NCBI RefSeq assembly: GCF_007859755.1
Contig: NZ_SJPF01000003.1
Span: 372,001-436,000, forward strand
Direction of reading: 5' to 3'
DNA length: 64,000 nt
Origin: Blastopirellula retiformator
GTDB lineage: Bacteria > Planctomycetota > Planctomycetia > Pirellulales > Pirellulaceae
Positions 29,099 through 32,462 of the stretch are shown one piece after another (the first letter of the stretch is position 1; the number at the start of each line of letters is the position of its first letter). The position numbers were made by a program, and so were the translations under genes. The notes beneath the pieces were generated by a model. It ran no database searches. It was not told where the DNA came from and worked only from the letters and a program-made list of their open reading frames with translations.

Positions 29099-29134
29099 AA
29101 GCCCGGGTCGACTATCGACGCCGGGCTTTTTTTG
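29099..29134 (+). terminator. Terminator-like hairpin just before the tRNA array
   Basis: AAGCCCGG (with GTCG) pairs with (CG)CCGGGCTT, followed by T7. It lies only 9 nt before tRNA-Phe. With no gene between here and the previous terminator, it may end a short leader transcript or insulate the array. Confidence 0.75.
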
Positions 29135-29143
29135 TGCATCTAC

Positions 29144-29215
29144 GGACGAGTAGCTGAGACGGAGTAGCGTCTGGCTGAAAACCAGAAGACGGAGATTCGA
29201 GCGCTCCCTCGTCCA
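29144..29215 (+). tRNA. tRNA-Phe (GAA)
   Basis: Acceptor GGACGAG/CTCGTCC, anticodon arm TCTGG-CTGAAAA-CCAGA giving GAA, T-loop TTCGAGC. The D-stem is only about 3 bp and the T-stem has one mismatch. CCA is not encoded. First gene of the array. Confidence 0.85.
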
Positions 29216-29232
29216 CTATCAGGAGACGGATG

Positions 29233-29523
29233 ATGAACAGTCAACCTTTGTTTCAACAAGCGATCGCCGCCTGCTTCGAAATTCCCAGTCGGCCGGCGAT
29301 CCGCTCGGCTCGGATCCGCTTCCGGGGCGGCGCTTCGCAGCGCTACGCCGTGGTGCTGGGACCGCAGGAAGCGGACGAGCCGCAGCGTTTACAGTTTCGC
29401 GGCGGCCAAGAGTTGGAGGTCGACCTGCGACCCAGCGGCGTTGGCCAAGACGCCTATGAACTGCGACTCGGAGGCGGTCGCCGGGCTTTGGAAGTCTCGG
29501 CCGACTACTTCGACGTGATTTAG
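29233..29523 (+). CDS. 96-residue protein inside the tRNA array, unknown
   Basis: Begins ATG 29233 (or the adjacent ATG 29230) with AGGAG a few bases upstream and ends TAG. The sequence is rich in Arg, Gly and Leu with short alternating hydrophobic stretches (RYAVVLGPQ, LQFRGGQELEVDL, ALEVSADYFDVI), suggesting a small beta-rich domain; there is no signal peptide and no known motif. It starts 18 nt after tRNA-Phe and ends 115 nt before tRNA-Gln, all on one strand, so it is probably on the array transcript. Good ribosome site and high-GC third positions argue it is real. I do not recognise a family. Confidence 0.7.
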   Translation: MNSQPLFQQAIAACFEIPSRPAIRSARIRFRGGASQRYAVVLGPQEADEPQRLQFRGGQELEVDLRPSGVGQDAYELRLGGGRRALEVSADYFDVI

Positions 29524-29532
29524 CGACTTGAG

Positions 29533-29577
29533 GCGGCGCGCTCCCAGTGGGTGGGAACAAGCGAGGGAGCGCGCCGC
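29533..29577 (+). other. Strong hairpin after the 96-aa gene
   Basis: GCGGCGCGCTCCC pairs perfectly with GGGAGCGCGCCGC (13 bp) around 19 nt; a second hairpin CCGAAAC-gac-GTTTCGG follows at 29583-29599. No T-run follows, so a processing or RNA-stability element is as likely as a terminator. Confidence 0.6.
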
Positions 29578-29638
29578 AACGTCCGAAACGACGTTTCGGC
29601 CACTTTGATCTTTGACAATTCGGCTAGTGATTGCTGTT

Positions 29639-29711
29639 GCGAGAGGTTCGCTGTTGGTAGTGATGCCTGACTTTGAATCAGGTTGCCGCTGGTTCGATTC
29701 CAGCTCTCGCA
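29639..29711 (+). tRNA. tRNA-Gln (TTG)
   Basis: Acceptor GCGAGAG/CTCTCGC, D-arm TCGC...GTGA, anticodon arm CCTGA-CTTTGAA-TCAGG giving TTG, T-arm CTGG-TTCGATT-CCAG. Well-formed, 73 nt, CCA not encoded. TTGACA lies 22 bp upstream. Confidence 0.9.
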
Positions 29712-29763
29712 GCCTTGTTGGGCTACGATGGTCCGGTTTGTCGCTCGCCCTACAAACGAAAAT

Positions 29764-29838
29764 GCACCTGTGGAACAGTCCGGAATGTTCGCCGCCCTGT
29801 CACGGCGGAGGTCGCGGGTTCAAATCCCGTCTGGTGCG
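29764..29838 (+). tRNA. tRNA-Asp (GTC)
   Basis: Anticodon arm CCGCC-CTGTCAC-GGCGG giving GTC; D-stem GAAC/GTTC; T-arm GCGGG-TTCAAAT-CCCGT; discriminator G as usual for Asp. The acceptor GCACCTG/CTGGTGC has one T-T mismatch at pair 6. Confidence 0.88.
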
Positions 29839-29887
29839 CTTAAGAATTCGCGGTAACAAGTTGCCGCGGTTCTCGCTTCCCATTTTC

Positions 29888-29965
29888 GGCACGGTACGCA
29901 AATCTTGGCAAAGCGGCGAAGCTCAGACCTTCGTGACTTTGTGAGTTCGAGTCTCACTCGTGCCA
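29888..29965 (+). tRNA. tRNA-Leu (CAG), lacking the long variable arm
   Basis: Acceptor GGCACGG/TCGTGCC (one G-T), D-arm CGC...GCG with GG in the loop, anticodon arm CGAAG-CTCAGAC-CTTCG giving CAG, T-arm GTGAG-TTCGAGT-CTCAC, discriminator A. Between anticodon and T stems there are only 7 nt (TGACTTT), whereas leucine tRNAs normally have a long paired variable arm. Confidence 0.8.
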
Positions 29966-29976
29966 CTATCCACTAC

Positions 29977-30058
29977 GCGTCGGCTGGGCATTGGCGAGCC
30001 CAAGTGGCTGTAAACCACTCGTTTTCGAACTTTGGCGGTTCAATTCCGTCCCGACACA
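29977..30058 (+). tRNA. tRNA-Tyr (GTA)
   Basis: Anticodon arm AGTGG-CTGTAAA-CCACT giving GTA; D-stem GGGC/GCCC; a 14-nt variable region as expected for bacterial tRNA-Tyr; T-loop TTCAATT. Acceptor GCGTCGG/CCGACAC has one mismatch. Confidence 0.85.
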
Positions 30059-30091
30059 CTCGACTCCCCTTGCTCTACCTTGATGCTCACT

Positions 30092-30158
30092 GCGGACGAG
30101 CCGGAGCTCGACGAAGCCTCATAAGCTTCGGGCAGCGGGTTCGACTCCCGCGTCCGCT
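30092..30158 (+). tRNA. tRNA-Met (CAT), with a shortened D-arm
   Basis: GCGGACG/CGTCCGC perfect end pairing, anticodon arm GAAGC-CTCATAA-GCTTC giving CAT, T-arm GCGGG-TTCGACT-CCCGC. Only about 13 nt remain for the D-arm, and there are no three G-C pairs in the anticodon stem, so it is not an initiator. A CAT anticodon could also be a lysidine-modified Ile tRNA. Confidence 0.72.
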
Positions 30159-30181
30159 ATTTGAGAATGACGAATGTCTAA

Positions 30182-30330
30182 CTGCCTGTTGAAAAATGCC
30201 CTCGTGGCATTTTCCAACCTCGCCAGGCTCAGAGCATAGCTCTTCGCGGCTCGCAAAATAACAACTTACGTCGCTATTTTGGGATCGCATCCCTGCGATC
30301 CAGCAGCCCGTTGAGAAAATCAACGGACTG
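30182..30330 (+). repeat. Dispersed repeat family A, copy 3 (inside the tRNA array)
   Basis: 149 bp, nearly identical to copy 1 at 9802-9950. It splits the array into a first block of six tRNAs and a second block of four. Confidence 0.92.
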
Positions 30331-30339
30331 CCAATGCTG

Positions 30340-30362
30340 AAACGCAAGACCGAATTGCGTTT
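30340..30362 (+). other. Hairpin after repeat A copy 3
   Basis: AAACGCAA-gaccgaa-TTGCGTTT is a perfect 8-bp stem followed by TCTT. Could be a weak terminator or part of a small RNA; the following ~120 nt to the next tRNA hold no gene. Confidence 0.45.
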
Positions 30363-30481
30363 TCTTAGCGATCAAACCGCGATTCTTGGGTTCGCTCCAA
30401 TATTCAAGCTGGGGCGGCGAACAACCATCGAAAGCTACAGAACAACAATAGACATTGGTCATTAGGCATTTCTTCTCTCTC

Positions 30482-30554
30482 GGCTTGCGAGTGTGCCGGA
30501 TTCGCACGCAACCTTGCGAAGGTTGTAGGCCAGGTTCGATTCCTGGGTGAGCCG
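30482..30554 (+). tRNA. tRNA-Arg (GCG)
   Basis: Acceptor GGCTTGC/GTGAGCC (two wobbles), D-arm GTGT...GCAC, anticodon arm CAACC-TTGCGAA-GGTTG giving GCG, T-arm CCAGG-TTCGATT-CCTGG. Bacteria normally read CGU/CGC/CGA with an ACG (inosine) tRNA; a GCG tRNA is rare. Confidence 0.85.
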
Positions 30555-30561
30555 CTTTTTT

Positions 30562-30634
30562 AACGTCGTCGCTGTTGGACAGCCGGCCGTCTGCAAAACG
30601 GCTCGCACGTCGGGTTCGATTCCCGCCGACGTTT
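30562..30634 (+). tRNA. tRNA-Cys (GCA)
   Basis: Acceptor AACGTCG/CGACGTT perfect; D-arm GCTG-TTGGA-CAGC; anticodon arm GCCGT-CTGCAAA-ACGGC giving GCA; discriminator T, the known Cys identity base. The acceptor starting with A is unusual. Lies 7 nt after tRNA-Arg. Confidence 0.85.
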
Positions 30635-30739
30635 TTTTGATGCAAGCATCGAGAGACGCAATACTCCGGCGGCGCTTGGGCCTCTTGTTCAGATTGGTCA
30701 AAAGCGTTCCGCGAAAACGGGTTCGACGGTTGCGTTTCT

Positions 30740-30813
30740 CTTGTGGTCGTCCAAAGGTAGGACGTCGGTTTTGAGGACCGAATGTATGGGTTCGATTCCC
30801 ATCCACTGCACCA
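30740..30813 (+). tRNA. tRNA-like gene, anticodon TGA (Ser-like), degenerate
   Basis: D-arm GTCC-AAAGGTA-GGAC, anticodon arm TCGGT-TTTGAGG-ACCGA giving TGA, T-arm ATGGG-TTCGATT-CCCAT, and an encoded CCA. The acceptor stem pairs poorly (two mismatches) and the variable region is only 4 nt, whereas serine tRNAs need a long arm. Probably not a normal serine acceptor. Confidence 0.55.
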
Positions 30814-30839
30814 GGAAATGCCCAATGGCATTTCCACCA

Positions 30840-30912
30840 TTACCGTTAGCTCAATGGGTAGAGCACCAGACGATTAATCTGGCTGTAGCAAGTTCGAATC
30901 TTGCACGGTTAA
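30840..30912 (+). tRNA. tRNA-like gene, anticodon ATT (Asn-like), odd anticodon loop
   Basis: D-arm GCTC-AATGGGTA-GAGC, T-arm GCAAG-TTCGAAT-CTTGC and acceptor TTACCGT/ACGGTTA (one mismatch) are good. The anticodon loop is CGATTAA: G replaces the nearly invariant T33 and the anticodon reads ATT, where bacterial tRNA-Asn has CTGTTAA. Confidence 0.7.
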
Positions 30913-31346
30913 CCACCGCCTGAAGGGATGCGACGATCGCACGATCAGTCGTCGACGCGGCGTCTTGTCGGTCAACGCAACTACGCTTTTTGGCTTCGGC
31001 CACTTGGCGGAGATGCCGAGAATGACACTCGCTTTGTCGGCGGCCCCATCGGTTTGCGGCTTTGCGGGACGAACGGTCCGCATCGATACTGCGTGTTGCC
31101 GACCTCTACGGCAAGCGCGTCTGGTTCTTCTTGCGAGAAGAGCGGGCGCTCTCTAAGTGGAAAGACGCTTGACGCTCGCGATGCGCACCGACGATCCCCC
31201 GCGGCAAAAGATGGGATCGCAGCGGACGCTTGCATCCTGGATGGCATTTTTCGTACACGCACAATCACGGCCGAATTGCTTTTTCGTTTTCAACCTTTTT
31301 GTGGAGATTGCTTCCGATGCGTTAACAGACGAGCGGAGCAGGAGAG
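30913..31346. other. Spacer between the tRNA array and the slipin gene
   Basis: No complete gene. One plus-strand frame (31026-31172, ending TGA) translates to a plausible segment, RVADLYGKRVWFFLREERAL, but has no ATG/GTG start and could be a gene remnant or chance. No further tRNA was recognised. GGAG motifs near 31335-31344 serve the slipin start. Confidence 0.45.
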
Positions 31347-32462
31347 ATGACGACGATGATGTTTAACCAGCTAATTCAAATCCAAACGTACGAAGCGGGC
31401 CTGCACTTTGTCGACGGCGAATTCGTCGGCGTGCTCGCTCCGGGGCGTCATCGCTTGTGGAGCGTCTTCCGCAAGCAAACGGTCGATATCGTCTCGCGGC
31501 GCGATCCGTGGCTGCGTCACGACAAGCTCGACGTGATTGCTCGCAGCGGTTTGCTGGGCGATCAGGCCGTGGTCGTCGACCTGACCGAGCACGAGCGGGC
31601 CATCGTGATGATCGACGGCCGTTTCGACCGGATCCTGAAGCCGGGCCTGTACGTCTACTGGAACGGTCAGCGCAAGGTCGAGATCGAGCGGTACGACGCG
31701 CAAGACGTTCGTCTGCAGCGTAACCACCTGTCGCGCATCGCCCGCGAGTCACTGGTTCGCGCGGCGCTCGACGTCTGCGAAGTGCAGCGGTTCCACCGCG
31801 GCGTGCTGTTTTACGACGGCAAGTACGTCGAGACGCTCGACCCAGGCGTTTACGCGTTCTGGCGCGAGACGGTCGACGCCCGCGTCGTCGAGATCGACCT
31901 GCGCGAGCAGACGCTTGACGTCGCCGGTCAAGAGATCATGACGGCCGACAAGGTGACGCTGCGGCTGAACCTGGTCGCGACCTACCGCGTGGTCGATCCG
32001 CTAAAGGCGGCGGCCGCAACGCTCGACGTGGCGCAGGCCTTGTACCGCGAGACGCAGCTCGCCGCTCGGGCGGTGATCGGCGCTCGCGAACTGGAGGTCT
32101 TCTTGTCGGAGAAGGAAAACGTCGCCGACGAGATTGCCGCGATCGCTCGTCGCCGGGCTGAAACGCTTGGTCTAGAGTTGATCACGGTGGGCGTACGCGA
32201 TGTGATCTTGCCTGGCGAGATGAAGGACCTGCTGAACAAGGTGACGCAGGCCAAGAAGGCGGCGGAGGCGAACCTGATCTTCCGGCGGGAAGAGACGGCC
32301 GCGATGCGCAGCCAGGCGAACACCGCACGGCTATTGGCCGATAATCCCACGCTAATGCGACTGCGTGAGCTGGAGGTCTTGGAGAAGATCGCCGCTGAGG
32401 GCAAGCTGAACGTGGTGGTTGGCGAGCGCGGCTTGGCCGATCGGATCGTGAACCTGTTGTAG
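31347..32462 (+). CDS. Slipin / SPFH (band 7) protein with three DG-PG-W modules
   Basis: 371 residues, ATG 31347 with GGAG 8 nt upstream (in-frame ATGs at 31356 and 31359 are possible). Three similar modules precede the SPFH core: GLHFVDGEFVGVLAPGRHRLW (about 16), AIVMIDGRFDRILKPGLYVYW (about 88) and GVLFYDGKYVETLDPGVYAFW (about 152). The SPFH domain follows (IDLREQTLDVAGQEIMTADKVTLRLNL and a long charged helix with VTQAKKAAEANLIFRREETAAMRSQ). Unlike stomatin or classical slipins there is no N-terminal hairpin anchor. Proteins of this type assemble into membrane-associated rings; as I recall, related slipins occur in bacterial Rtc RNA-repair operons. Here it follows a tRNA array on the same strand. 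Confidence 0.88.
   Translation: MTTMMFNQLIQIQTYEAGLHFVDGEFVGVLAPGRHRLWSVFRKQTVDIVSRRDPWLRHDKLDVIARSGLLGDQAVVVDLTEHERAIVMIDGRFDRILKPGLYVYWNGQRKVEIERYDAQDVRLQRNHLSRIARESLVRAALDVCEVQRFHRGVLFYDGKYVETLDPGVYAFWRETVDARVVEIDLREQTLDVAGQEIMTADKVTLRLNLVATYRVVDPLKAAAATLDVAQALYRETQLAARAVIGARELEVFLSEKENVADEIAAIARRRAETLGLELITVGVRDVILPGEMKDLLNKVTQAKKAAEANLIFRREETAAMRSQANTARLLADNPTLMRLRELEVLEKIAAEGKLNVVVGERGLADRIVNLL

Follow-up and report, generated by a model that had tools for sequence, protein, structure and literature searches.

A large structured RNA with tRNA-like modules precedes slipin genes and adjoins tRNA arrays in planctomycetes

The RNA-repair operon of Salmonella, rsr-yrlBA-rtcBA, carries the Y RNA YrlA (PMC7790460, PMC9879122), whose tRNA-like domain, as Hughes and colleagues suggest, may inhibit an anticodon nuclease (PMC7790460). 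Anabaena PCC 7120 possesses a long, stress-induced tRNA array, the trn operon, which is controlled by TrcR; the array, rtcB and a slipin gene (alr0740) belong to one TrcR regulon (PMC10272220). Here we describe a locus of the planctomycete Blastopirellula retiformator that shares features with both. It lies in a stretch of 64,000 nucleotides (contig NZ_SJPF01000003.1, positions 372,001 to 436,000; hereafter the window) and consists of a tRNA array (array 1), a structured RNA of about 600 nt with tRNA-like modules, and a gene for a slipin, a protein with an SPFH domain. All three are on the plus strand.

The likeness to the Salmonella operon lies in a tRNA-like non-coding RNA within an RtcR/sigma-54-controlled operon that also holds rtcB and rtcA. 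In contrast, slipin here replaces Rsr/Ro60, the RNA is about 600 nt long, and the window's genus has tRNA arrays and is without RtcR. YrlA is the nearest functional analogue. The likeness to Anabaena is a supernumerary tRNA array with rtcB and the slipin alr0740 sharing its regulon. However, the Anabaena array is on a plasmid, and its slipin and rtcB are elsewhere.

Two further kinds of element resemble parts of the locus. GOLLD and ROOL are large ornate bacterial RNAs often found near tRNA islands, and the GOLLD linker sometimes contains tRNAs; they differ from the RNA here in their phage or prophage setting (PMC12286853). In 2016 "degenerate tRNA gene clusters" were described in planctomycetes and read as partly degraded and possibly dispensable (PMC4807772). 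These are probably the same kind of arrays as ours, and the passages of that account mention neither a slipin nor a structured RNA.

The structured RNA and its slipin

A preliminary description of the window, made from the sequence, had listed ten tRNA-type genes on the plus strand. ARAGORN calls nine between 29144 and 30915, and none elsewhere in the window; the tenth, a Met-like element, is a weak match. Two of the ten, however, belong to something larger. The Ser-like and Asn-like elements are modules within the structured RNA that lies between the array and the slipin gene.

The whole RNA spans 30636..31258, with approximate ends drawn from covariance model R1, minimum free energy folding and comparison with relatives. 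A hairpin domain forms its 5' part; next come a tRNA-like module, which has D, T and anticodon-type arms, and small hairpins, and then the 3' domain. The 5' domain (30651..30742) is a long hairpin, for which relatives show covariation, with the conserved motifs CCGGCGGCGC ... GTTCCG ... CGGGTTC. The extra module at 30740..30813 is called Ser TGA by ARAGORN and by eye has no long variable arm. It is followed by the main module at 30840..30912, called Asn ATT (ARAGORN, Rfam) with G at position 33, and by the 3' domain at 30913..31255, which comparison with relatives delimits. R1 matches the window at 30624-30816 (72.3 bits) and at 30835-30904, and the minimum free energy has a z-score of -3.83 (20 shuffles). 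By eye, the Ser-like module occurs in all four same-genus loci with a differing loop, and tandem tRNA-like modules also occur in L155, L177 and L181.

The structure is conserved and covaries. Across 20 loci, 98.4% of the cells in the 5' domain and module pair, and both sides have changed in 56 cells versus 16.8 in shuffles (0 of 500 as high). A long-range helix in the 3' domain pairs in 145 of 190 cells, versus 122.6 in re-pairings (0 of 1000 as high). This helix was tested in relatives, over 38 of 69 loci and 72 registers, of which the three strongest are one helix; the loci come from a fuzzy search, an earlier regular expression having caught 18 of 69.

Within the window's family, slipin is matched at E<=0.001 in 58 of 119 genomes and strongly (E<1e-100) in 39. 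We took 30 family loci and extended 20. The ~600-nt pattern is visible by eye upstream of slipin in 26 of the 30. Two of the remaining four are cut off (L047, L060), and two are without the pattern beside slipin (L065, L070); in L065 the RNA lies 2.7 kb from slipin, as seen in L092 and L152.

The link between RNA and slipin reaches far beyond the genus. We searched 294 genomes of the phylum, 4 of them from the window's family, with an RNA model built from 20 loci. Ordinary tRNAs also score with this model, reaching about 68 bits, so that evidence comes only from higher scores or from position. By the model alone, 24 loci reach at least 70 bits, all outside the window's family. A same-strand slipin homologue lies downstream of 23 of them, in 22 cases at most 1.5 kb away and in one at 2.9 kb; L109 is the sole exception. 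None of six loci at 66.8-68.1 bits has a slipin, one of these (L122) being cut off. Viewed from the slipin side, a same-strand RNA match lies upstream in 69 of 80 named loci, some of which are records also used in building the model. The match exceeds 70 bits in 59 of the 69; the other 10 rest on position as well. Of the 11 slipin loci without a match, seven have under 460 nt upstream, and the remaining four are L151, L162, L174 and L199, the last with a weak 42-bit match. Matches above 70 bits occur in Planctomycetota, Desulfobacterota, Acidobacteriota and one Krumholzibacteriia record; in Verrucomicrobia, Photobacterium and Burkholderia the support is positional alone. The array-slipin order that the preliminary description had proposed to trace in relatives holds in part: slipin is linked far beyond the genus, but its tightest partner is the structured RNA with its tRNA-like module, not the array.

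A mobile carrier was considered and rejected. There was one weak phage match (25% identity, 42% of the query). Matches came from 259 plasmid records, nine of them over most of the query, and among the ten matches listed the replicons measure 0.33-4.8 Mb.

The RNA is large and apparently undescribed. Rfam gave no match other than tRNA-type ones in nine loci at E up to 1. Rfam holds models of GOLLD and ROOL, and neither was found in that search. Nor did the open-licence PMC literature, among the matches listed, yield a description of a slipin-linked tRNA-like RNA.

The main module looks like a tRNA that does not decode. Sixty-nine loci have 61 distinct anticodon loops, eight loops are not seven bases long, and the 61 seven-base loops hold 27 anticodons. 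U33 is present in 35 of these 61, versus 310 of 351 array tRNAs. Acceptor pairs 1-7 are formed in 27, 28, 31, 39, 56, 63 and 66 of the 69 loci, so that pairs 1-3 are near chance (about 26 expected), and CCA is encoded in 15 of 69. Among four same-genus species the loop changes and the body hardly does. The Asn-like element and its counterparts thus do not keep the marks of a functional tRNA (a seven-pair acceptor stem, U33, a stable anticodon), and judged from its sequence the module is not a decoding tRNA. Rhodopirellula solitaria has two RNA-slipin units (L132, L137) whose loop and stem letters differ.

One could read the whole RNA as a cis-acting leader of the slipin mRNA. The module would then be a signal for processing or folding, which RNase P/Z cleaves or which protects the 5' end, with no action in trans. 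The position of the RNA upstream of slipin in 69 of 80 loci, at a median of 445 nt from model end to slipin, speaks for such a leader, and a free anticodon loop would suit a processing signal. Because RNA and slipin have no conserved terminator between them (7 of 69 loci, 2.5 expected), a leader must be reckoned with. It would, however, have to tolerate rtcB between RNA and slipin in three Desulfobacterota loci (L187, L190, L197), gaps of 1.5-2.7 kb in L142, L152, L179 and L200 and of 2.9 kb in L206, and a leader of about 600 nt that includes a long-range covarying helix would be large. We consider this account unlikely, though a serious contender.

The slipin gene itself lies at 31347..32462 on the plus strand, as the preliminary description had recognized. 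Pfam finds Band_7 in the window's protein (E 1.1e-31) and in 22 of 22 slipin members. An AlphaFold2 model (predicted local distance difference test, pLDDT, 86) contains beta repeats at 6-50, 74-117 and 141-184, the SPFH domain and a long C-terminal helix; the sequence shows an internal repeat. No membrane segment was seen by eye. An SPFH domain with a long C-terminal helix is also the plan of stomatin/slipin and of major vault protein; unlike these, the window's slipin has two extra N-terminal beta repeats before the SPFH domain. With the full model, Foldseek finds stomatin best (E 1.7e-16) and vault protein at E 7e-11, and the N-terminal part alone has no solved-structure match at E<=0.001. 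We do not claim a vault-like shell: no Pfam vault family is among the matches of the 22 members, and the N-terminal part has no vault match among its best 50 structure matches. Five genomes (G013, G055, G075, G086, G111) have a different, distant Band-7 protein, with 33-34% identity to the window's in a partial alignment; a TROVE/Ro60-like gene lies about 5 kb away.

Supernumerary tRNA arrays

Many tRNA genes can precede the RNA-slipin unit in planctomycetes: 34 lie ahead of slipin in G048, 36 in G105, 20 in G068 and 23 in G019, leaving out those within 700 nt of slipin, and none in some extended loci (e.g., L079 and L084). Arrays of at least 10 same-strand tRNAs lie upstream of slipin in 10 of 52 named loci and downstream in 0 of 57; for at least 20 tRNAs the counts are 9 of 52 and 0 of 57. 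The 52 are those of the 80 named loci that extend 5 kb or more upstream. L126 is the largest array: its 39 tRNAs stand for 19 amino acids, no Tyr being called, and 19 of 20 is the maximum called in any single array. Within the region of that array, L126:7088-7855 encodes an RNA ligase 61% identical to the ligase near array 2 (see below). In Adhaeretor mobilis (L135:2-3016) the tRNA array is preceded by a Ro60-like gene and a distantly related paralogue of RtcB.

The arrays come on top of a complete set. In 38 stretches of the window's 6.2-Mb genome we find 47 tRNAs outside the arrays, which cover all 20 amino acids. The canonical copies that the preliminary description had proposed to look for therefore exist, and the arrays are supernumerary to a complete housekeeping set.

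A second array (array 2) lies on another contig of the same genome. It holds Glu, Pro, Ile, Lys, Thr, Gly, Asn, Trp, Ala, Val and three Leu tRNAs, with a further His 5 kb on. Beyond these stand genes for an RNA ligase (PF09414), a Ro60-like protein and RtcB. The last three lie within about 10 kb, with rtcB, which is absent from the window itself as the preliminary description had noted, about 9 kb beyond the array. Jointly the two arrays cover 19 of 20 amino acids. Ser is missing once the Ser-like and Asn-like elements are left out; a Ser tRNA is present in array 2 of the same-genus genome G018, where array 2 is retained. An 89-codon frame within array 2 (L001:8665-8931) is 72% identical in G018. 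After array 2, on the opposite strand, lies a FloA-like (flotillin) gene (L001:9280-10401), so a second SPFH-class protein flanks this array.

Array tRNAs are probably chargeable. Our sample comprises 488 different tRNAs from 24 array loci and includes a few embedded modules and neighbours. With ARAGORN placement, 337 of the 488 pass a filter on the first two acceptor pairs, and 306 of the 337 form all seven pairs. G3:U70 occurs in 15 of 16 Ala tRNAs versus 4 of 321 other array tRNAs, and base 73 is C in 13 of 13 array His tRNAs. In other identities base 73 largely agrees with housekeeping tRNAs; it is mixed in Arg, Glu and Gln. Because G3:U70 and base 73 are preserved, we argue for selection on charging; because they keep these signals, array tRNAs are probably usable and not decoys. 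The preliminary description had offered "reserve or decoy" as one idea. For the array tRNAs, a reserve fits the preserved charging determinants and a decoy is not supported.

Its second idea was decay, and the corresponding account would be a decaying tRNA cluster, gained by horizontal transfer, that by chance adjoins a slipin with a long 5' leader. Such decay agrees with the published reading of planctomycete clusters as degenerate and with the poor scores of several array tRNAs. It also agrees with the state of the genus. Near rtcB, two tRNAs are called in B. marina DSM 3645 and three in G080, so little of array 2 is left in two of the other three genomes of the genus; a whole-genome search found no array elsewhere in either (51 and 53 tRNA matches, compared with 65 in the window's genome). 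In all four genomes of the genus array 1 is short. The split into array 1 and array 2 looks like a remnant of the 20-39-gene arrays of related genera. Decay is thus partly real. Against the account as a whole, charging determinants are preserved in array tRNAs, same-strand arrays of at least 20 tRNAs stand upstream and never downstream of slipin in the loci counted above, and the structured RNA covaries. A chance neighbourhood of this kind is therefore improbable.

In the window, array 1 opens with tRNA-Phe(GAA) at 29144..29216 (Rfam tRNA, 56.2 bits) and continues with tRNA-Gln(TTG) at 29638..29714, tRNA-Asp(GTC) at 29764..29839 (Rfam, 56 bits), tRNA-Leu(CAG) at 29888..29966 and tRNA-Tyr(GTA) at 29977..30059, all called by ARAGORN. 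The Met-like element (CAT, short D arm) at about 30091..30160 is missed by ARAGORN and has a weak tRNA-clan match of 28.2 bits (L043:246-311); similarly short-bodied Met(CAT) genes are called in relatives' arrays. A hairpin-rich stretch without clear genes (30166-30481) splits the array here. Beyond it ARAGORN calls tRNA-Arg(GCG) at 30482..30555 and tRNA-Cys(GCA) at 30562..30634, the final tRNA ahead of the structured RNA, as Cys also is in a number of relatives. The Rfam gathering threshold accepts 4 of the 10 tRNA-type elements in the window scan and 6 in the whole-genome scan, so that several are weak when judged with the general tRNA model.

The 96-codon gene embedded in array 1 (29233..29523, plus strand) is real. 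Its frame is open in three same-genus genomes, and substitutions between the window and these relatives at codon positions 1/2/3 number 4/3/23, 12/13/27 and 11/13/31. This pattern indicates that the gene is under selection as a protein at the level of the genus. Pfam gave no match for it at E up to 0.01.

Ten nucleotides ahead of the first array tRNA, a terminator-like hairpin with a T-run (29100..29133, plus strand, read from the sequence) may act as an attenuator. By eye, such a hairpin and T-run precede the first array tRNA at 12 of 13 array starts: the window, L073, L074, L075, L077, L090, L126, L136, L147, L156, L001 and L203 have it, L091 does not, and L135 was not usable. The 12 are not independent, because six come from one genus. 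An automatic terminator scan did not list 29100..29133 and gave 2 terminator-like sites versus 4.3 in shuffles. In the array leader, GCGCTTGTGAC could pair as a putative antiterminator with the 5' strand of the terminator (by eye).

A possible role in RNA repair

Slipins of this family sit among Rtc genes in other phyla, in line with the preliminary description. All 7 Desulfobacterota loci have rtcB on the same strand at a distance of no more than about 5 kb, as do L181, L195, L199 and L202. RtcR is confirmed in the four loci tested (L176, L180, L181, L191), three of which are Desulfobacterota, and RtcA in L176 and L180; other frames of these neighbourhoods were named by eye. In L176, L180 and L181 the RNA is followed by slipin, rtcA and rtcB in that order, and rtcR faces it. 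Sigma-54-like sites stand 6-23 nt ahead of the model start in L176, L187, L191 and L197, all Desulfobacterota. That is 4 of 69 loci versus 0.25 expected, under a stricter rule that enforces GC and under which L180 drops out. In L191 a gene between slipin and rtcR (L191:11187-12530) resembles by eye a CCA-adding enzyme or poly(A) polymerase. A Citrobacter record, also by eye, has rtcR divergent from slipin, together with a sigma-54-like site and what looks like the remnant of a T arm.

Synteny thus links the RNA-slipin unit to Rtc RNA repair in other phyla and hints at a shared stress-repair unit. Co-occurrence gives a further hint: RtcB is present in 39 of 39 genomes with slipin versus 67 of 80 without (Fisher p 0.005, a test that ignores phylogeny).

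Given this setting, the RNA might be a giant relative of bacterial Y RNAs of the YrlA type, with a Ro60/Rsr protein as partner. YrlA has a tRNA-like domain, sits in an rtc operon and has been proposed as a competitive inhibitor of an anticodon nuclease (PMC7790460), and a Ro60-like gene follows array 2 in the window's genome. However, no Y RNA family is among the Rfam matches (nine loci, E up to 1), although it was not checked that Rfam 15 includes a model of YrlA. Nor does the partner follow slipin: Ro/TROVE occurs in 12 of 39 slipin genomes versus 19 of 80 without slipin (Fisher p 0.5), and in 3 of 12 genomes searched whole, with 0 of 4 among non-planctomycetes. Some Ro/TROVE proteins may be missed, because the TROVE model matches them in part only. 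On the Rfam result and the TROVE co-occurrence we disfavour a Y RNA identity, which we hold to be highly improbable.

We propose instead that a tRNA-mimic RNA works with slipin in RNA repair or translation stress, and that planctomycetes add a reserve set of tRNAs. We give this reading a probability of roughly one half. The TrcR regulon of Anabaena, described above, offers a precedent. RNA or translation damage would switch the RNA-slipin unit on. The expressed RNA, neither charged nor read, would act in trans and bind tRNA-handling proteins, which may be the damaging nuclease or modification or repair enzymes. A slipin oligomer would hold or localise the RNA-protein complex, and in planctomycetes the attached array would refill the tRNA pool. 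We infer that the unit benefits the cell in this way.

Several observations weigh against this proposal. On the side of the arrays, 26 of 52 loci have no same-strand tRNA upstream, so half are without an array; just 337 of 488 array tRNAs pass the acceptor filter, and 41 of 351 are without U33. The module loop is not wholly free, since purine 37 is kept in 59 of 61 seven-base loops, and the absence of a conserved terminator noted above keeps a cis leader in play. On the side of repair, gene order varies in Desulfobacterota, with rtcR after slipin and beside rtcB in L191. No rtcB is near the RNA-slipin unit in any of 7 Acidobacteria loci, and in 14 less fragmented genomes of the window's family slipin lies either on another contig than rtcB or no closer to it than 170 kb. 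RtcR was not found in the window's genome or genus (0 of 4 genomes), nor a sigma-54-like site at the window's arrays or RNA. Because the genus is without both, Rtc regulation cannot simply be transferred to it; regulation there differs.

A bolder version of the proposal is more tentative, and we regard it as somewhat doubtful. It holds that the RNA is an undescribed class of large RNAs in at least four phyla, a tRNA mimic with a species-specific loop that would act in trans with an SPFH/slipin shell, either to lure or sense tRNA-cutting nucleases or to serve as a scaffold for tRNA repair, and that planctomycetes couple to it a near-complete, chargeable reserve set. If this is true, a loop that keeps changing would be the signature of an arms race against anticodon nucleases.

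With a large, loop-variable RNA preceding slipin in several phyla, the reason for finding tRNA mimics and slipins among RNA-repair genes becomes a testable question. Our covariance model supplies a seed for an RNA that Rfam 15 matches by tRNA models alone (nine loci). For the planctomycetes, the reading of their tRNA clusters shifts from "degenerate" to probably chargeable reserve sets.

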